A DNA stretch of 35,114 bases from Candidatus Limiplasma stercoravium (GTDB taxonomy: Bacteria > Bacillota > Clostridia > Christensenellales > Aristaeellaceae). The notes under the pieces were generated by a model. It made no database searches. It had not been told where the DNA came from and worked only from the letters and a program-made list of their open reading frames with translations. Both the position numbers and the translations under genes were made by a program. Positions within the stretch are counted from its first letter, which is position 1; every line of letters begins with the position of its first letter. The stretch is taken from positions 1 through 35,114 of the forward strand of contig DVME01000105.1 in assembly GCA_018715175.1 (NCBI GenBank). The letters are read 5' to 3'. Below, one piece after another: positions 11,013 through 33,314 of this stretch.

Positions 11013-11043
11013 GGCGGTCATCCTTTCGCAGGTTCTTCAAACG

Positions 11044-17954: not shown

Positions 17955-18774
17955 CGCCCGGCTCGAAGTCCTGCGGCGCCAGGCAGGGATTGGCGCGCAG
18001 AATGCTGGCTACGGGCAGGTTGAAGCGCACGGCCACGGCCTCCAGCGTTTCGGTGGCTGCGAGGGTGTAGGTTTCGGGCAGCTCGCAGGGAATGTTCTCC
18101 TTGGGAATGCAAAGGGTCTGGCCTACGCGCAGCGAATCCAGATCCACGCCGGGGTTCGCGGTTTCCAGGGTGTGACGGCTGACCAGGTTGCGGATTTGCA
18201 GGTCGGCCACGGTTTGCCCGCGCTGGACGATCCATTGATCCTCGACGGGACAGACGGTATTGTCGTCCAGGACGTCACCGGGCGTGGCCACGATGCCGCC
18301 GGTGGCGCCGGGACACGGCGTGATGCAGTAGCCGCGGGCCGTGCCGGTCATACCGGTCGCGCCGGTCGCGCCAGTCATACCGGTCGCACCGGTCGCACCG
18401 GTCGCACCGGTCGCACCGGTGGCGCCGGTCATACCGGTCATACCGGTCATACCGGTCATACCGGTCATACCGGTCGCACCGGTGGCAACGGTTGCATCGG
18501 ACAGGCCGGTGGCAACGGTTGTATCGGACAGGTTGGTCGTGCCGGTCGCACCCGTCGCCGCGCCGCCCAATCCGCCTGTCTGGGGCGAGTCGTCCTCCTC
18601 GCGGGGCACGCACAGCACGTCGCCGACCATCAGCCGGGCGGGATGGATGTCGCTGTTGGCGGCCAGCAGGTCGCGCAGCGGCACGCCCAGCTTGTGCGCG
18701 ATAAGGTAAAAGCTGTCTCCCCGCTTGACCACGTACTCCTCGGCGCAGCGGCCGGTGTTGCTTTGCTGGTTCAT
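17932..18774 (-). CDS. LysM protein with collagen-like GXT repeat tract
   Basis: A 280-residue protein with no signal peptide or membrane segment. Residues 13-57 form a LysM domain ([18 protein letters not shown] ... [10 protein letters not shown]). Residues 67-146 are low complexity, with about sixteen ATG/MTG triplets (99-144) that follow a Gly-X-Thr pattern like the collagen-like regions of exosporium proteins. Two more LysM-like units follow at 180-224 and 234-279. Nine cysteines are spread over the protein. LysM without secretion signal plus a GXT tract suggests a spore coat or spore-surface protein, by analogy with SafA and BclA; this is inference. AAAGGAG lies 8 bases from the ATG. A CATAGGGT stretch upstream could be a mother-cell sigma -10, but I see no matching -35. 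Confidence 0.75.
18337..18490 (-). repeat. 9-base tandem repeats coding the ATG/MTG tract
   Basis: On the plus strand units of ACCGGTCAT or ACCGGTCGC (GCGCCGGTC variants) repeat about sixteen times. Each unit codes one Gly-Ala-Thr or Gly-Met-Thr triplet on the minus strand. Unit length is a multiple of three, so copy-number change would lengthen or shorten the tract without a frameshift. Runs of five identical units (18430-18476) indicate recent duplication. Confidence 0.9.
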
Positions 18775-18878: not shown

Positions 18879-19577
18879 ATGCCGTTGGTCAACTATTGCC
18901 GCAAGTGCAAAGCCGAGGTGCCGCCAGGGGAGGTCTGCCCCTACTGCGGCGGAAAAATCGCGCCCAGTAGCGAACGCCTGTCCTTTGAAACCACGCGCGT
19001 GCCGGTGCGCGATTGGTTTGCCTGGAACAGCCTGCTCAGGGTGCTTTTGCCGGCCTACGGGCTGGTGGTGGCGCTGGTGCTGGTGGGCGAAGCCGCCGCA
19101 GGCGGCATGGAGAGCGTGGCGGCGCTGCTGCGCCAGGGGTTTTTGGGCTTGATGGGCGCGGTGTTGGCGGTGCTGCTGGCGGCGGTTGGGTTGCTTTTGG
19201 GCTTGCAGGGCCCGGAGCTGGTGCGCTATGTGTTGGATCGCCAGGGCGTACAGGCGCGGGTGTACGTGCCCCAAGGCAGCGAGCGCAGGCTGTGGGCGCG
19301 GTTTCTTTCGCCCCAGGCCGTTGCCGCCTTGAATGAGAACGAAGCCGCTGCGCCCGAGGGCCTGGTGCTGGTGCGCCGCGTGGTACTGCCCTGGGCGCAG
19401 GTTCGGCGCGTGCGTATATGGCGCGAGGAAGGCGTGGTGCTGCTGTTTCGTCCGGCGCTGTGGCAGGCGCTGTGCGTGCGCTGTCCGCAGCGCGAGCTGG
19501 CGCAGGTGGAGGCATTCCTGGGCAAAAAGCTCAAACGCCTGCTTTCGCCGCCGTCCGCGCGCAAGAAAAAGAACTAA
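18879..19577 (+). CDS. Zinc-ribbon membrane protein of unknown function
   Basis: A 232-residue protein I do not recognise as a named family. Residues 7-23 form a small zinc ribbon (Cys7, Cys10, Cys20, Cys23: YCRKCK ... VCPYCGG). Two hydrophobic segments follow, about 52-70 and 88-110, then a C-terminal cytoplasmic part of about 120 residues with strand-like repeats ([39 protein letters not shown]) reminiscent of a PH-like fold. The tail is Lys/Arg-rich. AAGGAGG lies 8 bases before the ATG at 18879, so the upstream in-frame start at 18852 is not used. It lies between the LysM gene and the wall protein, so an envelope role is plausible only. Confidence 0.7.
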
Positions 19578-19603
19578 ATATTACGCAAATGTGAATATCA
19601 TGC

Positions 19604-19632
19604 TTGACATGCTTAACAAATTCCCCTACAAT
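19604..19632 (+). promoter_or_regulatory. Consensus promoter of the wall-protein gene
   Basis: TTGACA (19604-19609), 17-base spacer, TACAAT (19627-19632). A perfect -35 and near-perfect -10, the strongest vegetative match in the window. The transcript would start near 19639, about 45 bases before the start codon. The surrounding 100 bases are clearly AT-richer than the genes. Confidence 0.85.
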
Positions 19633-19683
19633 AACCATGGAATAGCACGCATAACGCCATTTGAATCCATGGAGGGCATGCAG

Positions 19684-22281
19684 ATGAGGCACTCAAAGCT
19701 CTGGACAAGCGCGCTGGTTGCCGTGACGGTTCTGGCGCTGCTGGCGCCCGTGGCGATGTCGGCGTTGGCGGCCACCTATCCCTACGAGACCATCAGCATG
19801 GACGATGTGAACCTGCGCAGCCGGGCCAACACGTCCTCGGTGGTGCTCAAGCGGATCAAGGCCGGCGATACCGTGACGATTTTGGGTGTATCGGGCGATT
19901 TTTACCGTGTGAGCTTTGACGGTTCAACCGGTTACGCCATGAAACGCTACATTGACGGCACGGATCCCGCGGCGGATCCGACGCCCAACCCCGATTTGGT
20001 TCTGCCGCCCATCACGGCCATATCGGAGTATCCTTACGACACCATCACCATCGACCGAGTGAAGCTGCGCAAGAAAGCCGAAACCGAGGGCGAGGTGATC
20101 CGCACGCTGCTGGCCGATACCGTGGTGACGGTGCAGGAACTGACGGACAACGGCTTTGCCAAGGTGCGCGTGGACGGCGATACCGGCTATGTACTGGCTT
20201 CGCACCTGAACCTGGCGGACATTCCCGCGCCTACGCCCACGCCTTCGCCCACGCCCGTGCCCGGAACGGAAAAGTACACCGAGCTCAAAAAGGGCGACGA
20301 AGGCGACGCGGTAACGGCCCTGCAATCCGCCCTGGCGGAATTGGACTACCTGGAAGAGGACGAGGTGGACGGCAAGTTTGGCGCGGCCACCGAATCCGCG
20401 CTGATGACCTTCCAGCGGCGCAACGGCCTGGAGCGCGACGGCATCGCCGACGTGGAGCTGCAACTGCTTCTTTATGAAGGCACGCCCAAGGATTACCGCG
20501 GTTACCGCCAGTATGTCAAAACCCTGCCGCCTGTGGCCGGGGTCAACATTCGAGAGGATGCAACCGGCAAGCCGGTGTCCAACCTGCAAACGCGCTTGCA
20601 GGAGCTGGGTTATTACAGCGGGCCCATCAACGGCGTGTTCGACGAGGATACCGTCGCGGCATGGCTGATGTTTGAGGGCAAGCACGGCTTGGTGGCCGAC
20701 GGCGAAGCCAGCGCCGAGGATCAGGCCATTCTCTACGGCGCTACCGCCTTGACCGCTGGCTCAGTCTCAATGATTACGCCCACGCCCACCGCCCCCCTCA
20801 CGCCGCCCACGCAAACCCTGCGCCGCGGCGACGAAGGTGAAGAGGTGCGCACCCTTCAGCTGCGCCTGACGGAACTGGGCTACTTTACCGCGACCGTCAA
20901 CGGCAACTTTAACAACGCCACCGAGGAGGCGCTCAAAGCCTTCCAAATCAAAAACGGCCTGGAGGACGACGGCGTTTGCGGCCCCATTACCGTCCGCGCG
21001 CTGTTTGATCTCAACGCCATCTACGCCGTGCCCACGCCCATCCCCGTGACGACGCCTTCGCCCACCGAGGAACCCCTGACGGAAGAAAACGTGGTCGTCA
21101 TTCGCGCCGGTACGCTGGGCAGCGTGGTGCTTCGGCTGCAAACCCGCCTGGAAGAACTGGACTACTACGAGTCCCGCAAGGACGGCGTGTACCTGTCCGA
21201 CGATATTCAGGCCGTGCGCGATTTCCAAAAGGCCAACGGGCTGACCGTGGACGGCGTGGCCGGCTTTGAAACCCAAAGCCTCCTTTACAGCGACGTGGCC
21301 GTGCGCGGCAACTACAGTCAATCCCTGGAAATCCTGACCACGCTTCGCTACGGCAGCGAAGGCGAAGAGGTATCCATCTTGCAAAACCGGCTGATCGCCC
21401 TGGGGTACCTGGCCGGCAGCGCGGACGGCATCTTCGGGCGCAACACCAAGACCGCGGTGCAGGCGTTCCAAAAGGCCAGCGGCCTGGATGCGGACGGCGT
21501 GGTGGGCGAAATGACCCAGGCCGCCCTGGATTCCTCCAACGCGGTGGCCAACACGGTATCCACCTCCACGACGCTGCGCATCGGCACCGTGAGCGACGCC
21601 GTGCGCGATTTGCAAAGCCGCCTGATTGCCCTGGGCTTCCTCAACGGCGCGGCGGACGGAAACTTTGGCGTGAAAACCAGCGCCGCGCTGATGGAGTTCC
21701 AGCGCGCCAACGGGCTGACCGTGGACGGCGTGGCAGGCTATAAGACGCTGACGGCCCTCAATAGCACCAATGTCATCGGCGCCCAGGGCGAAGAAACCAC
21801 CACCACCGCGCCGACCGTGACTGCCTCCAACATCAACGCCTCCATGGTGCGCTATGCCAATTGGTATACCGAGGTGCGCCAGAAGTGCCGCACCTACCCC
21901 AACGTGACCGTGTACGACTTCACCACCGGCATCAGCTGGCACCTCAACATCTTCAGCAACGGCGCGCACGCGGACGCCGAGCCCATCACCGCCGAGGACA
22001 CCGCCAACATGAACCGCGCCTTCGGCGGCGTGACTACCTGGACGCCCAAGGCTGTGTGGGTGATGTTCAGCGACGGTACGGTGTACATCGCCACCACGCA
22101 CAACACCCCGCACGATGTGAACCACAACCAGAACAATAACTTCGACGGCCACGTGTGCATTCATTTCCCGCGTACCCAGGAGCAGGTGGAGTCCATCGGC
22201 CCCTACGCGACGCAGCATCAAAAGGCGGTGGAGCTAGGTTGGGAAGCCACGCTGAAGCGGGCGACCCTGGGCGTCAACTGA
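19684..22281 (+). CDS. Secreted SH3/peptidoglycan-binding protein with uncharacterised C-terminal domain
   Basis: An 865-residue exported protein. Residues 1-30 are a signal peptide ending SALAA. Two bacterial SH3 domains follow (33-90 and about 117-178, both starting YPYxTI). A Pro/Thr linker precedes six peptidoglycan-binding modules (about 197-265, 284-354, 375-443, 470-540, 550-617, 627-697), each with the pattern LRxGxxGxxVxxLQxRLxxLGY ... FQxxNGLxxDGxxG. The last 150 residues (715-865) form another domain rich in His and Asn, with a GHVCIHF motif at 822-828. No known catalytic domain is certain. GGAGG lies 8 bases before ATG 19684; ATG 19678 and 19669 are alternatives. The strong promoter suggests an abundant wall protein, perhaps a hydrolase or a structural anchor. 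Confidence 0.85.
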   Translation: MRHSKLWTSALVAVTVLALLAPVAMSALAATYPYETISMDDVNLRSRANTSSVVLKRIKAGDTVTILGVSGDFYRVSFDGSTGYAMKRYIDGTDPAADPTPNPDLVLPPITAISEYPYDTITIDRVKLRKKAETEGEVIRTLLADTVVTVQELTDNGFAKVRVDGDTGYVLASHLNLADIPAPTPTPSPTPVPGTEKYTELKKGDEGDAVTALQSALAELDYLEEDEVDGKFGAATESALMTFQRRNGLERDGIADVELQLLLYEGTPKDYRGYRQYVKTLPPVAGVNIREDATGKPVSNLQTRLQELGYYSGPINGVFDEDTVAAWLMFEGKHGLVADGEASAEDQAILYGATALTAGSVSMITPTPTAPLTPPTQTLRRGDEGEEVRTLQLRLTELGYFTATVNGNFNNATEEALKAFQIKNGLEDDGVCGPITVRALFDLNAIYAVPTPIPVTTPSPTEEPLTEENVVVIRAGTLGSVVLRLQTRLEELDYYESRKDGVYLSDDIQAVRDFQKANGLTVDGVAGFETQSLLYSDVAVRGNYSQSLEILTTLRYGSEGEEVSILQNRLIALGYLAGSADGIFGRNTKTAVQAFQKASGLDADGVVGEMTQAALDSSNAVANTVSTSTTLRIGTVSDAVRDLQSRLIALGFLNGAADGNFGVKTSAALMEFQRANGLTVDGVAGYKTLTALNSTNVIGAQGEETTTTAPTVTASNINASMVRYANWYTEVRQKCRTYPNVTVYDFTTGISWHLNIFSNGAHADAEPITAEDTANMNRAFGGVTTWTPKAVWVMFSDGTVYIATTHNTPHDVNHNQNNNFDGHVCIHFPRTQEQVESIGPYATQHQKAVELGWEATLKRATLGVN

Positions 22282-22455: not shown

Positions 22456-25038
22456 TTACGCTTCGCTGCGCAGCATTTCGGCCGCTTGGCGCAGAATGCG
22501 GCGGGGGTCGTTTTGATAGGCGCGCAGGCCCTCGTCGCCCGCCGGGTTTCCCAAGACCTTGAGCGCATGCAGCAGCGTGATGCGCAGCATATGAAACCGC
22601 TCGCGCATCAATTCGTCGTCCGCTTCCCGGTTGAGTTCCGGCAGAGCCAAAACGCGCAGCAGCATAGGCTCCAGGGTTTTGTCACGGCGATGGATGGCGG
22701 CATAGGCAAAGCATTCGCCATAGCAATACACGCCGCAGCGCAGGTCGCGCCAGTCCCGAGGCCCGGCTTCCAGGCGTTTGAGCACCTGGCCGAACAGCTC
22801 CGAAACGTCCGTGCGCGGGGCATTGCCAAGGCTGTTGAGCAGGTAGACCAGCTCCGGCATCAACCCATGATCCGGCAGCAGCTGCCCATAGTTGATGGAG
22901 GCGACACGGCGGGGCAGCCCAGGCCCTTGCGATAGGAGCGCGTAGGCGGCGGCCATCACTTCCGCGGCGCCGTCCTCATCGCCATGCCATAGCAGCAGGC
23001 GCGAAAGGGTCAACCGCAGTCCCGGTTCCTGCGCGCGTTGAAGCGCCTGGCGCAGCAGAGGCACGGCTTCGCCGCGGGGCGCGGTCATCACGCGGATGAC
23101 GGGCGCAGGCGAGGTGTGGTAGTTGTCCGGCGGCGCGTCCAGCCATTCCCAAGGTTCGTTTTCGCCGAGGGCGTCGATGGTCTCCCGCAGGCTTACGGGC
23201 GCGGGAAGCTCGGGCAAGCGCCAATCGCCGCCCAGGGCGCGGATGGTGGGAACAACGTTTTCCGCCAGCCAGGGATCTGTTTTTTGAGCGATGGCGCAAG
23301 CGGCCAGCGCCGCCAGCGCCAGACCCTGGCGCTGCAAATCCGGCTGCATGCGCAAGCCGGGGAAAGCGTCGTGCGTACAGCTGATGGCTTTGCCGCCAAT
23401 CAGCAGGCCCCGGATGGGAACCTCCCGCTCGTCCACGGGAATCACAGCGCCGCGCGGCACCACCAGGAGCTGATTGGGCGGCAGCATGCCGAAATAGGCC
23501 ATGTCCGCCGTCAGGCGGCCTTTGGGATCGTAGTTGCTAAAACATGTATACAGCGGCTGTTCCACCGCGCGCATGGCCACCAGCTGCTCCAGGGTGACAA
23601 CGGCCATGCCCCGAATGTGCCGGGATTCCCGGACGGCCACGTATCTTCCATGGTCGTAGGTATGGTCTCCGCGCAGGCGGCCGGCCAGAATGAAGCGCGT
23701 ATAGTCCAGCGGATCGCCCACATGAACCATGGTGGAAAAGTTGTTGCGGTAGTTGTCGGGCGTGGTGTACTGCGCCAGGGAAGCCCAATAGGTCATGCCG
23801 TCGGTTTCGCTGCCATAAGTGTGCGCGGCCCCGGCAAACATGCCCAAATCGCCGTCGCCGGTGCAGTCCAAGATCATCTGCGCGCGGGCCAGGCGCGCAC
23901 GGCCTTCCATGGCGTACAATACGCCCGTCACCCGGTCGCCGCGCTTTTGAACGCCGCAGGCCACGCAGCCCATCCGCACCTGAACGCCCGCTTCCAGGCA
24001 CAGCCCCAAGAGCACATGCGCCTTTAGGTCGGGCAGGAACACGTCGTCCTCGCTCCAAAGGCATTTGCGCCGCGCAAGCCCAAGCCGGCGGTACGCCTCG
24101 TCCACGGCCCGGTCGATGTCGCGGGTGGCGCCGGTGCGCAGGCCGAACCAATAGGTGCTCACGCCGCCCACCGTAGCCGATCCGCCCAATTGCCGGTTCA
24201 TTTCCAGAAGCGTCGTTTTGTACCCCATTCGCGCGCTGTACAGCGCCGCGGCCGCGCCCGCCGTGCCGCCGCCCACCACCAGGATGTCGCAGGCTTCCTC
24301 CTGAGGCGCCAGGGCTGGAAACTCGATGCTCTTTTGCGCTTCAAACAAAGGGTTTTGACTTTGAGGCACGAAAGCGCCGGTCGGATAGAGCCATTCTCCG
24401 GCGCGCAGGCACGCGCCCTGCATCGCCGCGGACAGATCCAGACCGTCAAGCTCCGAAGCCTCTGTGCCGCCTCGGGCCAAAGTGCAGCCTTTGGGCAGGC
24501 AGGTCAACGCCTGCGCATAGCGGCGGTAGCGGTCTTCTGGGGTGGCCCCGGCAAAAGCCGTGGGCAGCGCAAGCACCTGATGCTCGCCGTCGCGCATCAG
24601 GTGCAGGCAGTAGCAGGGATCTTGTGGCGTCAGCCCATCCCGGCAGTCGTACGCCGCGCCGCAGCCCACGGCATAAAGGCCCGATTTGTGGGCCACCAGC
24701 GCCATGCCCTCCCAAAGGCCAAGCACTTGACAGGCGTAAAGCAGCCGAATCCCACGCCGGGCAAACAGCTCCTCGCCGTAGCGTTTCAGCCGGTCGGGAT
24801 GCAGCAGGCCGTCGCAATCCCGGGTTTGCGGCGGAAACAGCAGCGTTTCCCACGCCTGGCTCAAGCCTCGCGGCACGCGCAGGTCGCCCGTGCGGTCAAT
24901 GTCTCCGTACAGGCAGGTATCTTCGCCAATCAGCAGCACCGTTTCCCCCGCGGGGAGGCTCAGGGCGCGAATCATGGCCATGACGCCGCTTCCAACCACC
25001 AGGTGGTCGCAGCGCTCCAAAAGGGCGGCTTTGAGCAT
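22456..25038 (-). CDS. Large FAD-dependent oxidoreductase with duplicated Rossmann start and helical C-terminus
   Basis: An 860-residue protein. The catalytic part (about 246-620) is an FAD_oxidored-type enzyme with a clear dinucleotide motif (CDILVVGGGTAGAAAALYSA), then LLEMNRQLGGSATVGGVS, LDCTGDGDLGMFAGA and a late RGLLIGGKAIS. The first 240 residues hold a second, weaker Rossmann start (DHLVVGSGVMAMIRAL, residues 11-26) with poor conservation after it. From about 640 the protein becomes Leu/Ala-rich and helical, HEAT-like. Substrate unknown; such enzymes are often linked to glycan or glycoside degradation. GGAGGT precedes the ATG. It is the last gene of the carbohydrate operon, 17 bases after the phosphorylase gene. 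No signal peptide, so cytoplasmic. Confidence 0.75.
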   Translation of the reverse strand: MLKAALLERCDHLVVGSGVMAMIRALSLPAGETVLLIGEDTCLYGDIDRTGDLRVPRGLSQAWETLLFPPQTRDCDGLLHPDRLKRYGEELFARRGIRLLYACQVLGLWEGMALVAHKSGLYAVGCGAAYDCRDGLTPQDPCYCLHLMRDGEHQVLALPTAFAGATPEDRYRRYAQALTCLPKGCTLARGGTEASELDGLDLSAAMQGACLRAGEWLYPTGAFVPQSQNPLFEAQKSIEFPALAPQEEACDILVVGGGTAGAAAALYSARMGYKTTLLEMNRQLGGSATVGGVSTYWFGLRTGATRDIDRAVDEAYRRLGLARRKCLWSEDDVFLPDLKAHVLLGLCLEAGVQVRMGCVACGVQKRGDRVTGVLYAMEGRARLARAQMILDCTGDGDLGMFAGAAHTYGSETDGMTYWASLAQYTTPDNYRNNFSTMVHVGDPLDYTRFILAGRLRGDHTYDHGRYVAVRESRHIRGMAVVTLEQLVAMRAVEQPLYTCFSNYDPKGRLTADMAYFGMLPPNQLLVVPRGAVIPVDEREVPIRGLLIGGKAISCTHDAFPGLRMQPDLQRQGLALAALAACAIAQKTDPWLAENVVPTIRALGGDWRLPELPAPVSLRETIDALGENEPWEWLDAPPDNYHTSPAPVIRVMTAPRGEAVPLLRQALQRAQEPGLRLTLSRLLLWHGDEDGAAEVMAAAYALLSQGPGLPRRVASINYGQLLPDHGLMPELVYLLNSLGNAPRTDVSELFGQVLKRLEAGPRDWRDLRCGVYCYGECFAYAAIHRRDKTLEPMLLRVLALPELNREADDELMRERFHMLRITLLHALKVLGNPAGDEGLRAYQNDPRRILRQAAEMLRSEA

Positions 25039-25055
25039 GGGGCACCTCCGTAGCG

Positions 25056-26489
25056 TCAGAACAGGGATACCATTCTCCCCTCCTGCGAGTAGCGCAGGTC
25101 AAGCGTCTTTTGCAGCAAATCCACCTGCAAAGTCGCCGTTTCGCCATCGTAGCGGCGGCGAAGGGAAAGCTGATGGTCGGGTGAATCCAGGATTTCCAAG
25201 TCTCCTTGGAAGGCGGGATGCCGGTTGCGCAGGCGCATGAGCGCCAGCAGGCGCTGCACCACGGGACGGGCGGTTTCCTGCTGCGCCTCTTCCAAGGAGT
25301 AGTCATGCCGGTTGATGAAGCGATGATCCGCCGGGTCAAAGGACAAGTCGTTGCGCCCGGCCAGCATGCCCACGTAGTACACCTGCGGAATGCCGGGCGC
25401 GAAAAACTGGAGCGCCCGGGCGGTCAGGTAGGCGGTTTCGTCCTCGTTCAGCAGGGAAAAATACGTGCCGTAGAGCTGATATGCCTTCCAGTACTTCTTT
25501 TTGGATTCGTCCATGGGCTTGAAGGAGTAGGAAAGATTCGGCTCGATGCGCCGGATAACCTCCAACGCCTGCTCGCGGGACACGATGCCGTCCGCGTCAT
25601 ACACGCCGATGCCGTCATGCGTGTCCAGCACGGTGAATTGCCGCCGGGGACAGATGGAAAACCACCGCTTCATGGCGCGCGCGTCGCCGCTGAGCAGGGT
25701 ATGCAGGGTCAGCAGAGGCAATACAAAGTCATAGGTGTAATACCCGTGGCTGGCGATTTTCAGGGCGGTTTCGTAGCGGTCGTGTACCTCGGGCAGCAGA
25801 GTCATGTTTTGGGAGGCCAGCAGGTTTTCCATCTGCGCGATCAGCTCCCAGATTTGCGGCTCCACAAAAAAGCAATTGCTGCCGCGAATCTTGGTGATGT
25901 AGCCATAGGCGTCCATGCGCACCAGCGAAATGCCGTGCTGTCCGAGGTTGCGCAGGTTGCGCATGATGTACGCCTTGGCCTCGGGCGAGCGGGTATCCAG
26001 GTCGATTTGCTCGGAGGAGAAGGAGCACCACAGCTTTTTTTCCACGCCGCCGGGTAGGTTGACGGTCACGTAGAGGGGTTTTTCGCTGCGGCGGTACACG
26101 GCGGCCAGTTCCTCCGCCGACGGGTTGGGGCCCCAAAACGCTTCGTAGTCCATGAACATGGGCGCGTAGGGGCTTTGATCGCCATGGGCCAGATAGTCCT
26201 GAAATTCCCGGCTGCGCCGGGAGATGTGGTTGACCATCATGTCGCACATGAGGCAATGATTTTGCGCCAGGCGTTGGATGTCCTCCCAGTCGCCAAAAGC
26301 GGGCTCCACCATGTCGTACGTCGTGGGAGAGAAGCCCCGGTCGCCGCTGGAGGGAAAGAAGGGCAGAATGTGAATGCTGCCGACCGCGCCTTTGAACCAA
26401 GTTTCAAGCGCCTGATTCAGCCCCTTGAGGTTTCCGCCCAGGCTGTCGGGATAGGTAATGAGCATGATCTGGTTGGGAATGGCTTTCAT
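25056..26489 (-). CDS. gtfA: Sucrose-phosphorylase-family enzyme (GH13_18)
   Basis: A 477-residue GH13 phosphorylase that should cleave an alpha-glucoside with phosphate to glucose-1-phosphate. The start MLITYPDSLGGNLKGL and HILPFFPSSGDRGFSPTTYD are characteristic. Catalytic residues are the nucleophile Asp193 (VRMDAYGY), acid/base Glu234 (LLPEVHD) and Asp292 (LDTHDGIG), nearly the same numbering as the Bifidobacterium enzyme. The family also includes sucrose-6'-phosphate and glucosylglycerate phosphorylases, and motif reading cannot choose between them; CFFVEP resembles the sucrose and sucrose-6'-phosphate group. AAAGGAG lies 9 bases before the ATG. It follows the ROK-SIS gene by 23 bases and is coupled to sugar uptake genes. 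Confidence 0.88.
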   Translation of the reverse strand: MKAIPNQIMLITYPDSLGGNLKGLNQALETWFKGAVGSIHILPFFPSSGDRGFSPTTYDMVEPAFGDWEDIQRLAQNHCLMCDMMVNHISRRSREFQDYLAHGDQSPYAPMFMDYEAFWGPNPSAEELAAVYRRSEKPLYVTVNLPGGVEKKLWCSFSSEQIDLDTRSPEAKAYIMRNLRNLGQHGISLVRMDAYGYITKIRGSNCFFVEPQIWELIAQMENLLASQNMTLLPEVHDRYETALKIASHGYYTYDFVLPLLTLHTLLSGDARAMKRWFSICPRRQFTVLDTHDGIGVYDADGIVSREQALEVIRRIEPNLSYSFKPMDESKKKYWKAYQLYGTYFSLLNEDETAYLTARALQFFAPGIPQVYYVGMLAGRNDLSFDPADHRFINRHDYSLEEAQQETARPVVQRLLALMRLRNRHPAFQGDLEILDSPDHQLSLRRRYDGETATLQVDLLQKTLDLRYSQEGRMVSLF

Positions 26490-26512
26490 GTTTGCGCACT
26501 CCTTTCAACGGG

Positions 26513-28162
26513 TCAGGCCTCAAAGAACCGGGCTTCCAGCATGGCGCACAGGGTGTGGTACAAAGGCAGATGATACTCCTGCACGTCGGCCGGCGTGCGG
26601 GCCGGCGCGACGATGGCCGCGTCGCACAGCGCCTTGAGCCGTCCGCCGTCGCCTCCGGTGAGCCCCAGGGTCGCCAGGCCCAGCGCCTTGGCCACGCATA
26701 CGGCGGCGGCCACGTTGCGGGCGTTGCCGCTGGTGCTGATGCCGATCAGCACGTCGCCCTTGCGGGCGTAGCCAAGCACCTGTTCGGCGGGGGCCAGGAG
26801 GGGATCCACGTCGTTTTGCACGGCGGTGGAGAGGGCCGCGTGGCCGGTGAGGGCGATGGCGGGAAGGCCCTGCTGCAAACGATCTTCCATGCCAGGGAAC
26901 ACCTGCGCGCAGGCGCTTTGGACAGCCGCCTTGCGCTCTTTGGAAAGCGGGCGCTGGAGATAAAAGCCCTTCATCAGTTCACCCACGATGTGCTCGCTGT
27001 CGGCACAGCTGCCGCCGTTGCCCACCACCAGCACTTTACCGCCGTTGAGCAGGCTGTCGCGCAGGAGGATGTAGGCTTCCATCACGTCGCCGCGGCAGAC
27101 ATCCAGGGCGGGATAGCGCTCAAACAGCCGGTTGTAATGCGCCAGCACCCGCTCGTCGTGCTCCGGGCCGGCCTGCGTGGGATCAATGCCCAGCGCGTAC
27201 AGGGCCACCATGATGCTGGCCAGGTCGCCCAGCTGTTCGCCCGTTTGCGCCGGCGCCACGTTCAGCCCTTGCAGGGAATAGGGAATGGCTTCGCGCCGCA
27301 GCGCTTCCTCCATGGCTGGGCGCAGCAGCGCCTCGCAGCGAACAAAAATGCTGCCGATGACGATGCGCTCGGGATTGAAGGCGTCCACCAGCAGCGCCAG
27401 GCCCTCGCCCAGCCGACGGCCGATGGTCTCAAAAAACGCCCGGGCGTCCGCATCCCCGGCCTTGGCATACTCCGCCATGCGCTTGGCGCTCATATCCTCG
27501 GGCGCATATCCGTCGCGCACCCAAGATGGCGTCCTGCCTGCCTGCACAAGCTGACGGGTCAGCTCCGCCGCCTGGCGGCCGATGCCGCCGCCGCTGGTGT
27601 ATCCCTCAAATGATCCGGCCTTGCCAAAGCCCACGGGTCCGTCGGGCGTCAGGCGCAGATGGCCGACTTCCCCGCCCATGTCCGTATGGCCGCACAAAAG
27701 CTGCCCGTTGGCGATCACCCCGCCGCCCATGCCCGTGCCCATCGTCAGGAAAATCATGTCCTGCGCGCCGCGGCCTGCCCCCAGTTTCCATTCCACCAGG
27801 GCGCAGGCGTTGGCGTCGTTTTGCAAAAAGGCGGGCACGCCGTAACGCTCTTCGAGCATGGCCGGCAGCGGCACGTTTTCCCATCCGGGCAGGTTGGGCG
27901 GGCAGAGGATCACGCCTCTGCGGGAATCCAGAGGGCCGCCGCAGCTGATGCCGATGGCGCGAACGCGATCCCAGCCCAGGCTGTTGCGCTCCAAGATCGT
28001 CTCCACGCTTCGGCAGAGGCGCTCGTAGGCGCTGTCAAAGCCCAGCTGCGTTTGCGTATCGAAGCGGATTTTGTCCAGGAGCGTGATCCCGTGATCCACC
28101 GACGCCAACAGCACCGCGCACTTGGTGCCGCCGATGTCCAGACCGATAAACCTGTCTTTCAT
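26513..28162 (-). CDS. ROK sugar kinase fused to a SIS-domain isomerase
   Basis: A 549-residue fusion. Residues 1 to about 325 are a ROK-family kinase: phosphate-1 LDIGGTKCAVLLA, catalytic Asp116 in LQNDANACALVEW, and FLTMGTGMGGGVIANG. The zinc motif usually written CxCGxxGC is replaced by VGFGKAGS (177-184), so the metal-binding cysteines are absent. Residues about 345-549 are a SIS domain of the GmhA/phosphoheptose isomerase type (VLVVGNGGSCADSEHIVGEL, VLIGISTSGNARNV). The fusion suggests consecutive phosphorylation and isomerisation of one sugar. The start at 28162 is supported by the ROK N-terminus; the frame is open another 57 codons, but these overlap the metallo-hydrolase gene. The ribosome binding site (GGGAGAGAG) is weak. 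Confidence 0.85.
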   Translation of the reverse strand: MKDRFIGLDIGGTKCAVLLASVDHGITLLDKIRFDTQTQLGFDSAYERLCRSVETILERNSLGWDRVRAIGISCGGPLDSRRGVILCPPNLPGWENVPLPAMLEERYGVPAFLQNDANACALVEWKLGAGRGAQDMIFLTMGTGMGGGVIANGQLLCGHTDMGGEVGHLRLTPDGPVGFGKAGSFEGYTSGGGIGRQAAELTRQLVQAGRTPSWVRDGYAPEDMSAKRMAEYAKAGDADARAFFETIGRRLGEGLALLVDAFNPERIVIGSIFVRCEALLRPAMEEALRREAIPYSLQGLNVAPAQTGEQLGDLASIMVALYALGIDPTQAGPEHDERVLAHYNRLFERYPALDVCRGDVMEAYILLRDSLLNGGKVLVVGNGGSCADSEHIVGELMKGFYLQRPLSKERKAAVQSACAQVFPGMEDRLQQGLPAIALTGHAALSTAVQNDVDPLLAPAEQVLGYARKGDVLIGISTSGNARNVAAAVCVAKALGLATLGLTGGDGGRLKALCDAAIVAPARTPADVQEYHLPLYHTLCAMLEARFFEA

Positions 28163-28196
28163 GGCCGACTCTCTCTCCCATCCGTTGCGCCTTTGT

Positions 28197-28919
28197 TCAA
28201 TAGGGATAGGTACGCACGAAATCCTTGAACCAGGGGGTATAGTAGTTGGCAAAGGACTGTACCACCGAGGCGATGCGGCGATCCGCGTCGCACAAAAGCA
28301 GGGGAGGCGTATGTCCAAGAGTATAGCAGTCAAAGTGCAGGGACGTCAAGCGGCGGAGGCTTTCGCGCCAGGCGGCTTCATCGGAGCCGATAAGAGGGCT
28401 ATAACCTCCGTGCAGGGTATCTCCGGCGATCAATAGCCGCATGCCCACGGCGTGATCCAGCGCAAAGCAGCAGCTGCCCGGGCTGTGCCCCGGGGTGTGC
28501 AGGATGGTCCAGGAGCCGGCGTCCGTGGCAAAAGCGTCGTCCTGGGCGATCACGCCGTGTACCGGGGTGGGCGGGAAGGACGCGCCGTAGAGCAGCGACG
28601 CCGAGGTGCGCTCGCTGTCGCCGGTTTCCACCTGCTCGCGGTCCAGGGCATGCACATACAGCTGCGTGCCAAACGCCTGGGCAAACAGCCCGGCGGCGCC
28701 CACGTGGTCGTAATGGCCGTGGGTGGCGTAAATGCGCGCCAGGCGGGAAGGATCAAAACCCAGGGAGCGAATGTTGTCCACGATTTGCGCAAAGCCTTCC
28801 GGCGTTCCGCAGTCGATGAGGTAAAGCGAATCCCCCGCGGGAAGCAGGTAGGCGGTGGCGTCGAAGGAATGCGACACGTTCGGCCCAGCCACCTGGTATA
28901 CGCCCGGCAGAAGTTTCAT
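28197..28919 (-). CDS. Metallo-beta-lactamase-fold hydrolase
   Basis: A 240-residue enzyme of the MBL superfamily. Metal ligands are visible as THGHYDHVG (His67, His69, Asp71, His72), HTPGHSPGSCCF further on, IAGDTLHGG and the final TLGHTPPLLL. No signal peptide. It is not a lactamase in any specific sense; many relatives hydrolyse thioesters, lactones or phosphodiesters. A sugar lactone or an acyl-sugar would fit the operon, but the sequence does not say. ATG at 28919 has AGGT about 7 bases upstream; an upstream TTG at 28943 is a weaker start. It lies between the binding protein and the ROK-SIS fusion. Confidence 0.8.
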   Translation of the reverse strand: MKLLPGVYQVAGPNVSHSFDATAYLLPAGDSLYLIDCGTPEGFAQIVDNIRSLGFDPSRLARIYATHGHYDHVGAAGLFAQAFGTQLYVHALDREQVETGDSERTSASLLYGASFPPTPVHGVIAQDDAFATDAGSWTILHTPGHSPGSCCFALDHAVGMRLLIAGDTLHGGYSPLIGSDEAAWRESLRRLTSLHFDCYTLGHTPPLLLCDADRRIASVVQSFANYYTPWFKDFVRTYPY

Positions 28920-28964
28920 GGATGCACCTGCTTTCTTCCCCAAAAATCGGGAATAAGGTACGAA

Positions 28965-28992
28965 GGGGGAACGGGGTTTTCCCCGTTCCCCT
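28965..28992 (-). promoter_or_regulatory. Stable hairpin after the sugar-binding protein gene
   Basis: An 11 bp perfect stem (28966-28976 with 28981-28991) around a 4-base loop, only about 15 bases after the stop of the binding protein gene. No T run follows on the minus strand. Such hairpins often protect the upstream mRNA so that the binding protein is made in excess of the downstream enzymes. Confidence 0.6.
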
Positions 28993-29007
28993 CAGGCCAA
29001 ACGCTTC

Positions 29008-30267
29008 TTACAGGCCGCTGAGCTCAGGATAGGTGTCCTTGGCTTCCGCCATGAAGTTGGCGATGATGGCGTCGTTGTCCAGGCCGTTCTCAATGCCCTC
29101 CTCCGCGTGGGAAGCGAACATGTTCTGCAGGCCGCGGGTGTACTGGTCGGGGATGATGTCGGGGATGTTGAGGCAGATGGTGTCGTAGGTCTTCATGATG
29201 TTCTGGCCGCCGAAGCGCTCGTTGGTGTAGTCCGGGCCCAGGACGTTAACGATGTTCTTGTTGGCGGGCATCTGGTTGTTGACGGCCAGGTTTTGCAGCT
29301 GGTACTCTTCCAGGGTGAGGAACTCCAGGAACTTGGCGCACAGCTCCTTGTTGGTGGAGTTGGCGTAGATGGCGCGGTAGGTGCCGCCCTCATAGGAGTT
29401 CATGTGCGGCGCGGCCACGCCCACATTGCCTTCGTTCTTTTCCCAATCGGTGAAATAGTCCCAGGAGGGCATCACGCGGATGAGGAGGGTGCCGTCGTTC
29501 CAGGCAGAGGACCACTCGCCGCTCCAGCCGGGCAGGTCGGCCAGGACGCCGGAGTCATAGAATTTGCGCATGGTGTCCAGCAGCTCCAGCCAGCCGTCCT
29601 CAATGGCAAACTCGCCGTTGCGGGCGAAGGGGGTGAGGCTGTAGCCAGCCACTTTCACGATGTCCTTGAGGCTGTTCCACAGATACACGGTGCCGTCGGA
29701 AGCCTCATAGATTTCCTTGGCCTTTTCCAAAATCGCGTCCCAGCTGTTGAGGATGGCGCTGATTTCGGCGTCGTCGCTGGTGCCCAGCCACTCTTCCATG
29801 GCGTCGCGCAGGTACCAGTAGGCCACGGGGGAAACGTTGTCGCACACGCCCTTGAGCACTCCGCTGGAGTCGGTGCCCATGGCCACGGCCCAGTCATAGT
29901 ACTCTTCGCAGGCGTCGCCCAGGCCCAGCTCGTTGAGGTTGGCCAGCAGCGGGCTGTCAATGAACTTATACACATAGCCCTCTTCCAGGTCAAACACATC
30001 GGGCACGCCCTGGCCGGTGGGCAGGGTGTTCATCAGCTTGGTTTGGTAGTCCTCGCCGCCGAACACTTCCAGGTGGATGGTCACGTTGGGGTACTTCATT
30101 TCAAACTGCTCCTTGAGGAAGGGAGCCTGGTCGAAGTACGTCCACCAAGTGAATTCACCGGTCAGGGACTCGTCCACTTCGTAGGGGTTTTCGGTGGTTT
30201 CGGCCAGGGCGGGCACGCAAGCCGCTGCCAGCATCAGGCACAGGATGAGGGAAAGAAACCGCTTCAT
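29008..30267 (-). CDS. ABC transporter sugar-binding protein
   Basis: A 419-residue extracellular solute-binding protein of the carbohydrate (family 1, MalE-like) type. The first 22 residues are a signal peptide (KRFLSLILCLMLAAACVPALA). The LMLAAAC segment could be a loose lipobox at Cys17; otherwise cleavage would be after ALA. After that come a small lobe with VTIHLEVFGGEDYQTKLM and GVPDVFDLEEGYV, and a large lobe with the LFLEFLTLEEYQ-like AKFLEFLTLEEYQLQNL motif. AAGGAGG lies 9 bases before the ATG. Two permease genes lie upstream; no ATP-binding subunit is in the window, as is common for Gram-positive sugar importers that share MsmK-type ATPases. Confidence 0.9.
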   Translation of the reverse strand: MKRFLSLILCLMLAAACVPALAETTENPYEVDESLTGEFTWWTYFDQAPFLKEQFEMKYPNVTIHLEVFGGEDYQTKLMNTLPTGQGVPDVFDLEEGYVYKFIDSPLLANLNELGLGDACEEYYDWAVAMGTDSSGVLKGVCDNVSPVAYWYLRDAMEEWLGTSDDAEISAILNSWDAILEKAKEIYEASDGTVYLWNSLKDIVKVAGYSLTPFARNGEFAIEDGWLELLDTMRKFYDSGVLADLPGWSGEWSSAWNDGTLLIRVMPSWDYFTDWEKNEGNVGVAAPHMNSYEGGTYRAIYANSTNKELCAKFLEFLTLEEYQLQNLAVNNQMPANKNIVNVLGPDYTNERFGGQNIMKTYDTICLNIPDIIPDQYTRGLQNMFASHAEEGIENGLDNDAIIANFMAEAKDTYPELSGL

Positions 30268-30339
30268 GGATCGTTGCCTCCTTACGTTGGATATAGAGTG
30301 TATTTCACAGGCGCATGGCCTGATGAAAACGGGGGGAAT

Positions 30340-31197
30340 TCAGCCTTTGACCGCGGAGCCGATGGAGATTTTCTCCATGATGACCTTGTTGGCAAAGCTG
30401 AAGATCACCAGCAGGGGCGCCACCGAAATCAGGATGCCGACGTACTGCGCGCCGTAGTCCGCGCTGCCCGCGCCGCTCTTGATGGAAGCCAGCAAAACCG
30501 GCAAGGTCATTTTCTTGGTTTCGGTCAGGATAATCAAGGGGTTGAGGTAGCTGTTCCAGTTGCCGATGAAGCTCATGACGCCCTGGGTTACCAGCGCGGC
30601 GCCCATGCAGGGCAAAACGATGCGGTGGTAGATGCCCAGCTCGGTGCTGCCGTCGATGAGAGCGGCCTCGATCATCTCGTTGGGCAAGCCGGAATCCAGG
30701 TACTGCTTGAAGAAAAACACCGCGAAGCAGTTGGAGATGGCGGGAATCACCAGGGGAATGTAGCTGTTTAGGAGCTTCATGTCGCTGATGAGGCGGAAAA
30801 AACCGATGACGCCCAGCTGTCCGGGCAGCATCATCACCACCATGATGAAGGCAAACAGCCCGCCGCGGCCTTTGAAGCGGAACTTGGAAAAGGCGTAGCC
30901 GGTCATGGCGGAGAAGTACAGGCACAGGCCGGTATTGGCCAGGGCAAGCCACAGGGAGTTGAAGAAACCGAGCCAGATGTCCTTGTTTTGCATCATGCGG
31001 TTGTAGTTTTCCACGAACTTGGTGCCCGGGGTGAGGGTGAGGGTGGTGGTAATGGCCAGGTTGTCGTGGGTGGATCCCATCAGCATGGAATAGAAGGGAA
31101 AGAAGCACAGCACGGCGATGGCCCACAAAACCAGGTAACCGGCAAAGTGGCACAGGCGGCGTTTGACGATGGCGCGGGTGTTGATGTTCATGCTCAT
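30340..31197 (-). CDS. ABC sugar transporter permease, MalG type
   Basis: A 285-residue inner membrane protein with about six transmembrane helices. The cytoplasmic EAA loop that contacts the ATPase is NEMIEAALIDGSTELGIYHRIVLP, with the conserved EAA and G-x-P spacing. A periplasmic loop follows the first helix, as in the MalG group (NYNRMMQNKDIWLGFFNS). The start at 31197 has AAGGAGG 12 bases upstream, within the end of the preceding gene; a second ATG at 31191 is possible. It is 4 bases downstream of the MalF-type partner and 72 bases upstream of the binding protein gene. Confidence 0.92.
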   Translation of the reverse strand: MSMNINTRAIVKRRLCHFAGYLVLWAIAVLCFFPFYSMLMGSTHDNLAITTTLTLTPGTKFVENYNRMMQNKDIWLGFFNSLWLALANTGLCLYFSAMTGYAFSKFRFKGRGGLFAFIMVVMMLPGQLGVIGFFRLISDMKLLNSYIPLVIPAISNCFAVFFFKQYLDSGLPNEMIEAALIDGSTELGIYHRIVLPCMGAALVTQGVMSFIGNWNSYLNPLIILTETKKMTLPVLLASIKSGAGSADYGAQYVGILISVAPLLVIFSFANKVIMEKISIGSAVKG

Positions 31198-31201
31198 GGT
31201 C

Positions 31202-32089
31202 TTACTTAGCCTCCTTACCCTTGCGGTTGGTCACCAGGATGGAGATGAGGGAGAAGAAGCCAATAACCACCGCGATGCCGTAGGCGCAAGCTGCGCCGAA
31301 ACCAAACTGCCAGTTTTCGAAGGCGGCTTCGTACATGTACAGCACCATGGTGCGCGTGGCGTTGCCCAGGCCATCCTTGAAGAGCATCTTGGGGATGTCG
31401 AAGATCTGCAAGCCGCCGATGATGGAGGTAATCATGATGTAGAGCATGATGGGCTTGAGCAGGGGCAGGGTAATGCTGCGGGTGCGCTGCCAAGCGTTGG
31501 CGCCGTCAACCTCGGCGGCCTCGTAAACGTCGGAGCTGATGGAGTGCAGGCCGGCGGTGATAAAAATGATGTTGTAGCCGAAGTTTTGCCAGCAGATGGC
31601 GATGCCGCCGACCATCTTGGCCAGGATGGGCGTGTTGGCAAAGTCCACCGCCTGGGGAAAGAGCCCGATGGAGGCCATCAGGTTGTTCACCATGCCGCCC
31701 GGGTAGCCAAAGAGCATGTTAAACAGCATGCCAATGGTCACGGGCGTAATCAGGTTGGGGAAGTAGTACACGCTGCGCAGGAGGCTTTTGTTTTTCACCC
31801 AGCGCTCGTTGAGGATCAGGGAGAGGATGATGGCGATGGTGAGCTGCGGGATGATGGAAAACAGCCAGATGACGATGGTGTTGAGAATGCTGTCAAAGAA
31901 GTAGGCGGAGTGAATCAGCCGATCGTAGTTGTCCAAGCCCACAAAGGTCATCTGAAGCGTCAGAGGGTTATAATCGTGGAAGGAGATGTAGAAGGTATAG
32001 AAAATGGGGTAGATGCCGAAGGTGAGAAACGTTGCGAAAAATGGGAGGATGAACAGGTAAGCCCATTTCTGACGCCTCTTGATAGCCAT
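31202..32089 (-). CDS. ABC sugar transporter permease, MalF type
   Basis: A 295-residue membrane protein with six predicted helices, the first near residues 9-29 (FILPFFATFLTFGIYPIFY). The EAA loop reads DVYEAAEVDGANAWQRTRSITLP. It is the first-position permease of a carbohydrate importer, forming a heterodimer with the MalG-type partner. The ATG at 32089 has AGAAAGGTAG upstream, overlapping the stop codon of the regulator gene 6 bases away, so regulator and transporter are translated together. Substrate not readable from sequence. Confidence 0.93.
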   Translation of the reverse strand: MAIKRRQKWAYLFILPFFATFLTFGIYPIFYTFYISFHDYNPLTLQMTFVGLDNYDRLIHSAYFFDSILNTIVIWLFSIIPQLTIAIILSLILNERWVKNKSLLRSVYYFPNLITPVTIGMLFNMLFGYPGGMVNNLMASIGLFPQAVDFANTPILAKMVGGIAICWQNFGYNIIFITAGLHSISSDVYEAAEVDGANAWQRTRSITLPLLKPIMLYIMITSIIGGLQIFDIPKMLFKDGLGNATRTMVLYMYEAAFENWQFGFGAACAYGIAVVIGFFSLISILVTNRKGKEAK

Positions 32090-32095
32090 ATGTCT

Positions 32096-33106
32096 CTACC
32101 TTTCTGACTCTTGCTTTGGAGTGGTTTCCCGGAGCATCATGGTGGGAAGTACGTAGGTGGCGCACACGTTGTCGGGGCCGCCGCGAATGCGGGAGACAAG
32201 CTGGTTGGCGGCAATGCGGCCCATTTGCGCCAGAGGTTGACTCAGCGTGGTAATGGAGGGACGGGTGTGCTCGCAGATGGGATCGTCGTCAAAGCCGGCC
32301 ACGGCGACATCCTGAGGCACGCGCTTGCCGGCGTCCATCAACGCCTGCAAGCCGCCGTAAGTGGAAGAGGCGTTGGAGCCCACCAGCGCGGTGAAGGATT
32401 GTTCCTGCACCAGGCGCGATACCGTGCGGTAGGCGTCCTTGACGGTCCAGTTCACCCGAACGATGAGGTTGCGATCGGCCTCGATGCCCGCGCATTCCAG
32501 GGCGCGCAGGTAACCGCGTTGGCGGGAGTGGGCGGCGGGCATGTTGTCGGGCCCTTGAAGGTAAGCGATGCGGCGGTGGCCTTGGCGGATAAGCATTTCC
32601 ACCTCGGCTTGGGTGCCGTTGAGGTTGTCCACGTCCACGGTGGGCAAGCCCGCTTCGCCGGCGGCGTCGCCCACGAGCACGATGGGCAAGCCGCTTTCGC
32701 GCAGGAGGCGCACGTCCTGGGGATCGCGCTGGGCGAAGGTCACCAAGATCAGCCCGTCGACCATGCTGGAGGCGAACAGCGAGAGGGATTCGCTTTCCAG
32801 GGCGCGTTCGGACGCGCGGGAGAGAAACAGGCAGGTGTAGCCAAATTCTCGGGCGGCGGACTGGATGCCCGCCATCATGCCGCCATAGATGTAGTTGGAG
32901 ATATCGTCAAAGACGATACCAATGGCGTTGGCCCGGCTGTTCACCAGGCGTCGGGCATTGACGTTGGGCTGGTATTCCAGCTCTTTGATGGCGCGGCGGA
33001 TGCGGTTGGCCGTAACCTGGCTGATGCTGCCGCCGTTGAGGTATCGGGATACGGTGGACTTGGAGGTTTCCGCCCTCGCTGCGATATCCATAATCGTAAC
33101 CGCCAC
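32096..33106 (-). CDS. LacI-family transcriptional regulator
   Basis: A 336-residue repressor. The helix-turn-helix is at the N-terminus (TIMDIAARAETSKSTVSRYL, then a hinge QVTANRIRRAIKELEYQPN), followed by a periplasmic-binding-like effector domain (IGIVFDDISNYIYGGM, DGLILVTF, VDVDNLNGTQ, AVAGFDDDPICEHTRPSITT). Chosen start is GTG at 33106: AAAGGAG lies 8 bases upstream and the first residues then match LacI proteins. The frame is open back to 33190, across its own promoter. It is the first gene of the operon it most likely controls. Its presumed site is the palindrome GGGAACGTTCCC next to its transcription start. Confidence 0.92.
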   Translation of the reverse strand: MAVTIMDIAARAETSKSTVSRYLNGGSISQVTANRIRRAIKELEYQPNVNARRLVNSRANAIGIVFDDISNYIYGGMMAGIQSAAREFGYTCLFLSRASERALESESLSLFASSMVDGLILVTFAQRDPQDVRLLRESGLPIVLVGDAAGEAGLPTVDVDNLNGTQAEVEMLIRQGHRRIAYLQGPDNMPAAHSRQRGYLRALECAGIEADRNLIVRVNWTVKDAYRTVSRLVQEQSFTALVGSNASSTYGGLQALMDAGKRVPQDVAVAGFDDDPICEHTRPSITTLSQPLAQMGRIAANQLVSRIRGGPDNVCATYVLPTMMLRETTPKQESER

Positions 33107-33149: not shown

Positions 33150-33161
33150 GGGAACGTTCCC
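33150..33161. promoter_or_regulatory. Operator O1 for the LacI-family regulator
   Basis: GGGAACGTTCCC, a perfect 12-base palindrome with a central CG, the form of a LacI-family operator. It lies at about +8 to +19 relative to the predicted transcription start of the regulator operon, so bound repressor would block initiation or early elongation. Confidence 0.75.
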
Positions 33162-33174
33162 AAGTTCTGATGAT

Positions 33175-33203
33175 ATCTTAACACGCCCAAGGCGGAGTGT
33201 CAA
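33175..33203 (-). promoter_or_regulatory. Promoter of the carbohydrate operon
   Basis: On the minus strand TTGACA (33203-33198), a 17-base spacer, then TAAGAT (33180-33175). Predicted start near 33168. It is the only good promoter seen upstream of the whole unit that runs to 22456. Confidence 0.85.
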
Positions 33204-33302: not shown

Positions 33303-33314
33303 GGAAACGTTCCC
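33303..33314. promoter_or_regulatory. Possible second operator O2
   Basis: GGAAACGTTCCC is one base away from the O1 palindrome. It lies 153 bases from O1, between the glycosidase stop and its terminator. The distance is close to a whole number of helical turns only if about 10.2-10.9 bp per turn is allowed, so looping is possible but not shown. Confidence 0.55.

Follow-up and report, generated by a model that had tools for sequence, protein, structure and literature searches.

What is the purpose of an operon that joins a sugar phosphorylase to a flavoprotein, a hydrolase and a kinase-isomerase fusion? This question is raised by a 35,114-nucleotide stretch of the genome of Candidatus Limiplasma stercoravium (contig DVME01000105.1; "the window" below means this whole stretch), which carries on its minus strand eight contiguous open genes, running from position 33106 to 22456, for a LacI-family regulator, two ATP-binding cassette (ABC) sugar permeases, an extracellular solute-binding protein, a metallo-beta-lactamase-fold (MBL) hydrolase, a ROK sugar kinase fused to a GmhA-like SIS isomerase (ROK-SIS), an alpha-glucoside phosphorylase of glycoside hydrolase (GH) subfamily GH13_18, and a flavin adenine dinucleotide (FAD)-dependent oxidoreductase. 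We tentatively propose, at a little less than an even chance, that the operon takes up and cleaves an alpha-glucoside other than sucrose (glucosyl-X) as one half of a catabolic pathway, in which X would be degraded by an FGGY kinase, the FAD protein and an aldolase. More generally, we hold it to be very nearly an even call that there is an undescribed modular pathway with a core of three enzymes, the FAD protein with its extra Rossmann-like module, the FGGY kinase and a class II aldolase, which acts on the aglycone of alpha-hexosides by oxidation and cleavage, is often accompanied by DeoR, MBL and SIS/ROK genes, and is served by interchangeable front ends (GH13_18, GH38, GH36, GH32 or GH3), the GH13_18 enzymes having a new acceptor specificity. 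The proposal starts from the linkage of the genes, catalytic motifs that are in place, an acceptor loop that is not of the sucrose type, and a conserved operator.

The open reading frames bear out the sequence-only reading of this locus, which had described eight genes in this order on one strand with gaps of 4-88 bases (6, 4, 72, 88, 34, 23 and 17 bases in operon order), and its domain labels for all eight are backed by Pfam. In NCBIfam, the phosphorylase alone of the eight proteins scores above a cut-off among the matches listed, and the binding protein is without a match there; compared with solved structures, the latter gives four weak matches (best E 1e-15).

The substrate question depends mainly on the phosphorylase. 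Its score for TIGR03852, the sucrose phosphorylase family, is 518.7 bits (cut-off 334.4), and among solved structures it is closest to 7qqi ("Aamy domain-containing protein") and 7qqj ("Sucrose phosphorylase", E 8e-133). With GH13_18 sucrose phosphorylases such as 7qqj, the window enzyme shares the family and the catalytic and glucose-contact motifs, but not the acceptor loops. The catalytic Asp, Glu and Asp are present in the motifs RMDA, PEVH and HDGIG, which align with the same motifs or family variants in all 25 sequences of our loop-A comparison (the window, 20 other family loci, two G811 genes, G994 and E. coli YcjM; G-numbers denote genomes, G000 being that of the window and the others its relatives, all of them drafts and many metagenome-derived). 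As the glucose-contact motifs checked are kept as well, glucose is the likely glycone. Loop-A signatures have been used to assign specificities within GH13_18 (PMC7178133, PMC6720575), and in the excerpts of these papers the sucrose phosphorylase signature is N(L/V)D(I/L/V)YQ, including Asp342, which contacts the fructose OH4 (PMC7178133). This signature occurs in only two of the 25 sequences, the second G811 gene (NLDIYQ) and G029 (NLDVYQ). Loop A reads YWKAYQ in the window, YRKSYQ in G907, and KPVVYQ in the FAD-linked enzymes of G811 and G994. Relative to the sequences bearing the sucrose signature, in an alignment without the B. adolescentis enzyme, the position of Asp342 is occupied by Lys, and those of Pro134-Arg135 by Glu-Lys. 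Among the signatures given in the excerpts, the window loop also deviates from those of sucrose 6F-phosphate phosphorylases (promiscuous, GFDVHQ; strict, KXXYYQ) and of glucosylglycerol phosphorylase (VGAIYQ), and the enzyme deviates from the glucosylglycerate signature by having PEVH in place of (T/S)ETN at the acid/base and Gln in place of Glu in loop A. In fact, the FAD-linked GH13_18 enzymes match no signature in these excerpts, those of the myxobacterial enzymes included. The strict sucrose-6-phosphate signature, KN(M/V/I)YYQ, is found in 11 of the 25 sequences, and E. coli YcjM, a glucosylglycerate phosphorylase that served as control, shows TETN and TRSPYE with the Glu in loop A, unlike the window enzyme, to which it is 28% identical. 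On these residues, the window enzyme is probably not a sucrose phosphorylase and its acceptor probably not fructose, and the earlier suggestion of a pathway beyond plain sucrose can be upheld as probable. In our sample of 250 genomes of the family, which was the same for all family counts given here, GH13_18 genes occur in 18 at E <= 1e-50; G907 alone has the window type (68%), and the others are 35-46% identical. The second G811 phosphorylase, the one with NLDIYQ (L171, G811:C34, 9776-11176), has GH32-like genes on both sides and ABC permease-like genes nearby, a setting different from that of the FAD-linked copy.

The FAD and FGGY genes, which our reading predicts to be co-inherited, have the same distribution. 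The full-length FAD protein (E <= 1e-60) was found in 4 of the 250 family genomes (G000, G053, G856 and G907), and the FGGY kinase, searched with the G000 protein at E <= 1e-50, in the same four and no other. Identical sets of four in 250 would arise with a chance of 6e-9 if the genes were independent and phylogeny is ignored; the four genomes belong to four different genera. It is the full-length type that is rare, as PF12831 relatives are widespread at a looser threshold (E <= 0.001), with 88 of 100 relatives having one. The FAD protein is found order-wide in one of 396 genomes at 1e-30, that of the window itself, and class-wide in 9 of 391, the other eight of which match over part of the length only; among relatives of G811 it occurs in 4 of 96, G811 included, and no relative was found among viral contigs. 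Altogether, six of the eight FAD genomes have the FGGY gene, G986 and G1008 having been covered by contig stretches only. One member of the family is a metagenome-assembled genome (MAG) from sheep rumen.

The genes are also physically linked in relatives. In G907, which belongs to another genus of the same family, the first seven genes occur in the same order (identities from LacI to GH13_18 of 57, 77, 78, 75, 64, 69 and 68%), and the FAD gene (62%) shares their contig, some 4 kb upstream of the LacI gene. Between the FAD and LacI genes of G907 there are a class II aldolase and an FGGY gene on the opposite strand as well as a DeoR-like gene that is 45-49% identical to its G053 counterpart, and before the FAD gene there are genes for a GH38 enzyme, an Asp/Glu-racemase-like protein, a class II fructose-bisphosphate aldolase (FBA)-like protein, a DUF1537-type kinase, and a protein with a sub-threshold GH31 match only. 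In G856, the MBL and FAD genes are adjacent and face convergent binding protein and permease genes, and another contig holds FGGY, aldolase, GH38 and ROK-SIS genes in one run, ROK-SIS directly after GH38. In G053, GH38, FGGY and FAD genes stand together, the FGGY and FAD reading frames overlap, and a PF01261 barrel is encoded near the FAD gene; ROK-SIS lies on a different contig, close to a GH3 gene. G986 has MBL (54%), GH38, GH3 and FAD genes within 10 kb, with MBL and FAD 6 kb apart. The earlier idea that the FAD and MBL genes belong to the system thus gains ground, as they share a contig in G907 and lie close together in G856 and G986. The pattern that would count against it, clusters without them in nearly all genomes, was not seen for this phosphorylase clade: both genomes found with it (G000 and G907) have both genes, and we reject the view that they are passengers.

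A second lineage shows the module in larger loci. One locus of G811 (a Clostridiales MAG, DUNO01000001) contains genes for SIS, ROK, DeoR, a protein that we take to be ThuA-like (named without a family scan), two permease-like proteins, a putative binding protein, GH32, a racemase-like protein, FGGY, an FBA-like protein, a DUF1537-type kinase, a GH36-like protein (Raffinose_syn), class II aldolase, GH13_18, MATE, FAD and a Gfo/Idh oxidoreductase. The G994 locus spans about 46 kb between FAD and GH13_18 and includes DeoR, permease-like, GH32, several GH38, GH2, GH20, GH36-like, racemase-like, FGGY, FBA-like, DUF1537-type kinase, SIS and ROK, and class II aldolase genes; this glycan locus also has a pyruvate-formate-lyase-like glycyl radical enzyme gene between its ROK and racemase-like genes (L168:10076-12349). 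In G1008, DeoR and FAD genes are followed by genes resembling those of G994.

The module is therefore larger than the operon, as the FGGY kinase and the class II aldolase, both absent from the gene set of the sequence-only reading, are encoded outside. In G000 they are adjacent on contig C134 (L110:9110-11197, minus strand, 6 bases apart), a contig that also carries an apparent CRISPR-Cas locus (labelled by eye). The FGGY and FAD genes are on different contigs in G000 and G856, and in G000 the link between the contigs rests on binning (GC content 0.64 vs 0.59); the codon usage of the G000 FGGY gene correlates with that of the operon at 0.84, a value also obtained for another window gene. The closest solved relatives are gluconate and glycerol kinases for this FGGY protein, and two "Aldolase" entries and L-fuculose phosphate aldolases for the aldolase, and neither protein, in G000 or G907, comes near the cut-off of any NCBIfam family listed. 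The best match of the aldolase is 3-oxo-tetronate 4-phosphate decarboxylase (111 bits in G000 and 99 bits in G907, cut-off 250), so a beta-keto acid phosphate is possible as intermediate; the G811 aldolase instead matches L-ribulose-5-phosphate 4-epimerase best. The DUF1537-type kinase is closest to 3-oxo-tetronate kinase (228 bits in G907 and 257 bits in G811, cut-off 350). These best matches recall the tetronate (OtnK/OtnC) pathways, from which the system differs in that the scores are below the cut-offs and no such kinase is among the eight window genes.

The FAD protein itself matches PF12831 with 156.5 bits (cut-off 27), and its FAD-binding motifs GGGTAGA, E279 and TGDGD are invariant in all five aligned sequences. 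It consists of a degenerate N-terminal Rossmann-like module, the FAD_oxidored core and a C-terminal helical region, and its full-length orthologs are 62%, 56% and 51% identical. At four distant loci (L051-L054), a small Rossmann-like gene overlaps an FAD gene of 600-690 aa and is apparently a separate N-terminal module, an assignment to which profile comparison lends moderate support (probability 81%); four other distant FAD loci have long single genes. The window protein may hence have arisen by fusion of what were once two genes, and the distant pairs possibly form a two-subunit flavoenzyme.

As to the two accessory enzymes, the MBL motifs THGHYDH, HTPGH, AGD and GH, presumably the metal ligands, are kept in all four aligned sequences, the window included. 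The SIS half of the fusion matches phosphoheptose isomerases, and its segments ADSEHIVGEL and VQEYHLPLYH align with GmhA (2xbl), keeping the His/Glu and Gln/His positions that we take to be functional. Each half has its known counterpart, GmhA and the ROK glucokinases (3vov), but here both are in one chain, and the kinase half reads GFGKAGSFE in place of CxCGxxGCxE, the zinc motif of ROK kinases. Full-length ROK-SIS matches occur in 23 of the 250 family genomes, including all four FAD genomes (chance 6e-5). In one of the 23, G049, ROK and SIS are two adjacent genes, as they are in G994, where they are 52% and 44% identical to the halves of the window fusion. As 17 of the 20 other ROK-SIS loci read hold no module gene in the stretch, save a distant aldolase/FBA-like relative in two, ROK-SIS looks like a general enzyme that was recruited here, and we rejected it as a pathway marker. 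Beside the ROK-SIS gene of G850 (L142, about 10951-12190), GH13_18 pieces (matches of 207 and 67 aa) and a 36-aa GH38 piece apparently mark a decayed similar neighbourhood.

How is the operon controlled? The single LacI-type promoter that had been claimed is in place upstream of the LacI gene, and the palindrome GGGAACGTTCCC adjoins it. Taken alone, the scans of the window carry little weight, as promoter-like sites (3 vs 3.0 expected) and terminator-like sites (10 vs 12.6) are at chance level, and three matches to the palindrome with up to two mismatches (1.8 expected) are not significant. The syntenic operon of G907 carries a longer form of 18 bases, TTTGGGAACGTTCCCAAA, in the corresponding position before the LacI gene, behind a TTGACA-17-TACAAT promoter, and LacI control is best supported because another genus keeps the palindrome at the same place.

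From these data the following scheme can be drawn, in which the order of the steps, the identity of X and the roles of MBL and ROK-SIS are what we infer. LacI would repress the operon at GGGAACGTTCCC until an inducer is present. The ABC transporter would import the glycoside, and GH13_18 would phosphorolyse it to glucose-1-phosphate and X, two steps for which we draw on what is known of the families. X would be phosphorylated by the FGGY kinase and oxidised by the FAD enzyme, following a logic like that of GlpK/GlpD, and the class II aldolase would cleave or decarboxylate the keto product to yield a triose phosphate. MBL would most likely open a lactone or ester arising from this oxidation, and ROK-SIS would most likely convert free hexose from companion glycosidases (GH38, GH3) to fructose-6-phosphate. 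In the GlpK/GlpD route, an FGGY kinase cooperates with a flavin dehydrogenase, and in the FucK/FucA route with a class II aldolase; the system described here differs from both in its FAD protein, which belongs to PF12831 and has an additional module at its N-terminus.

Several observations weigh against this scheme. An aberrant loop A is by itself compatible with sucrose as substrate, being suggestive rather than proof, and it is not peculiar to FAD-linked genes, as another seven of the 25 sequences also carry motifs without assigned signature, (N/T/S)FNTYQ in six and KARQYQ in one. (The six, from L065-L071, make up another clade without published signature.) The aldolase was seen in only five of the eight FAD genomes in the loci and contigs read. 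G053 has no GH13_18 close to that of the window, a single weak match being all that was found, and the 49 kb of contig carrying its FAD gene are free of class II aldolase genes; the 37-kb FAD contig of G986 has neither FGGY nor aldolase nor DeoR genes; as the FAD gene thus occurs in loci lacking parts of the set, the FAD step is not bound up with the phosphorolysis of a glucoside. The FGGY gene of G000 stands 21 bases behind an asparaginase-like gene (labelled by eye). The AlphaFold model of the FAD protein, made from a three-sequence alignment, is poor (mean predicted local distance difference test score, pLDDT, 45.9), with the C-terminal helical part alone being confident. Finally, no operator match with up to two mismatches was found in L110, the stretch with the G000 FGGY and aldolase genes, and L109 of G000 gave only matches with three mismatches, at chance level. 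There is no perfect palindrome of at least 10 bases upstream of the FGGY genes of G907 and G856, nor an operator palindrome upstream of the MBL or permease genes of G856. An operator shared by the operon and the FGGY-aldolase genes was therefore rejected, as nothing beyond chance was seen near the FGGY genes checked.

What alternatives exist for the oxidation of a released X? The FAD protein could oxidise the intact glycoside or the glycone before cleavage, as in 3-keto-glycoside chemistry, and MBL, ROK-SIS and the phosphorylase would then act on the modified product. We regard this as unlikely, albeit the best of the competitors. It is in line with the many different glycosidases of the FAD loci (GH38, GH3, GH2, GH36 and GH32), with the Gfo/Idh and presumed ThuA-like genes of G811 and the PF01261 barrel of G053, and with the ycjM-ycjW genes of E. 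coli, where a regulator (which we assume to be of LacI type), an ABC importer and a GH13_18 phosphorylase are combined with redox enzymes acting on a glycoside and a 4-epimerase, according to annotation. In ycj, however, the redox enzymes are annotated as glycoside 3-dehydrogenases and no ROK-SIS, MBL, FGGY or class II aldolase is annotated, whereas the window operon has the PF12831 flavoprotein and neither a Gfo/Idh nor a PF01261 protein among its eight genes. Moreover, the co-distribution of FAD and FGGY implies that a free, phosphorylatable compound is processed, and the catalytic and glucose-contact motifs kept in GH13_18 indicate that the donor should be unmodified glucose.

A more specific form of the sequence-only reading, which had inferred that ROK-SIS phosphorylates and isomerises the released part, is improbable in our view: phosphorolysis would set free a hexose, for example mannose, with ROK-SIS as its dedicated kinase-isomerase, so that glucosyl-mannose would yield glucose-1-phosphate and mannose, the latter being converted via mannose-6-phosphate to fructose-6-phosphate, and FAD, FGGY and aldolase would serve another sugar. 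GmhA makes a manno-configured product, the SIS half keeps the presumed GmhA positions, and ROK-SIS lies immediately upstream of GH13_18 in the window and G907 and next to GH38 in G856; however, the many ROK-SIS loci without module genes look like general use, and FAD, MBL and FGGY are left unexplained. Least probable is an ordinary sucrose-type operon with GH13_18 as sucrose phosphorylase, ROK-SIS as fructokinase, and FAD and MBL as passengers, which the TIGR03852 score, the solved relatives 7qqi and 7qqj and the GH32 and GH36 genes in the G811 and G994 FAD loci (as, we presume, in raffinose-family clusters) would favour, but which we think unlikely on the grounds of loop A including the Asp342 position, of the FAD-linked G811 gene lacking the sucrose signature although a sucrose-type copy exists elsewhere in that genome, and of FAD and MBL being conserved partners.

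Table 1. Features of the window, with coordinates and the evidence on which each assignment is based
Feature	Position	Strand	Evidence
LacI-family regulator, 336 aa	32096..33106	-	PF00356 + PF13377; 57% ortholog in G907
ABC sugar permease, MalF/UgpA type, 295 aa	31202..32089	-	PF00528; 77% G907, 74% G856
ABC sugar permease, MalG/UgpE type, 285 aa	30340..31197	-	PF00528; 78% in both G907 and G856
Extracellular solute-binding protein, 419 aa	29008..30267	-	PF13416/PF01547; 75% G907, 74% G856
MBL-fold hydrolase, 240 aa	28197..28919	-	PF00753 + metal-ligand motifs
ROK sugar kinase fused to GmhA-like SIS isomerase, 549 aa	26513..28162	-	PF00480 + PF13580
GH13_18 alpha-glucoside phosphorylase, 477 aa, acceptor loop YWKAYQ	25056..26489	-	TIGR03852; loop comparison
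FAD-dependent oxidoreductase, 860 aa	22456..25038	-	PF12831
GH3 glycosidase, upstream of operon, truncated by contig end	33343..35112	-	PF00933/PF01915
Sigma-70-type promoter TTGACA-17-TAAGAT	33175..33203	-	scan; conserved operator adjoining
Putative LacI operator GGGAACGTTCCC, perfect palindrome, just downstream of -10 hexamer	33150..33161		exact in window
Second operator-like site, one mismatch to GGGAACGTTCCC	33303..33314		palindrome scan
Terminator-like hairpin, between upstream GH3 gene and promoter	33299-33275		scan

The GH3 glycosidase listed in Table 1 is possibly an accessory of the module, as G986 has a relative with 57% identity near its FAD gene, G994 one with 57% where its locus ends, and G053 one with 52% near ROK-SIS. 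On the other side of the operon, a convergent plus-strand gene (19333-22281) encodes a long protein that is probably exported and has SH3-like repeats as well as several peptidoglycan-binding-like ones; it is followed by a minus-strand gene (17932-18774) for a protein in which LysM-like ends flank GATGMTG-type collagen-like repeats; the SH3-like, peptidoglycan-binding-like and LysM-like labels were given by eye.

In the open-licence literature we found nothing relevant on this gene set or on a PF12831 flavoprotein together with glycoside hydrolases. According to the excerpt of PMC7178133, GH13_18 specificities beyond sucrose have been found via clades with an aberrant loop A and via gene neighbours, and the window clade has both clues, an aberrant loop-A motif and co-occurring kinase, flavoenzyme and aldolase genes. 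The rarity of the FAD gene within the family suggests a niche substrate, and the pathway proposed here could assign a function to one branch of the flavoprotein family PF12831.

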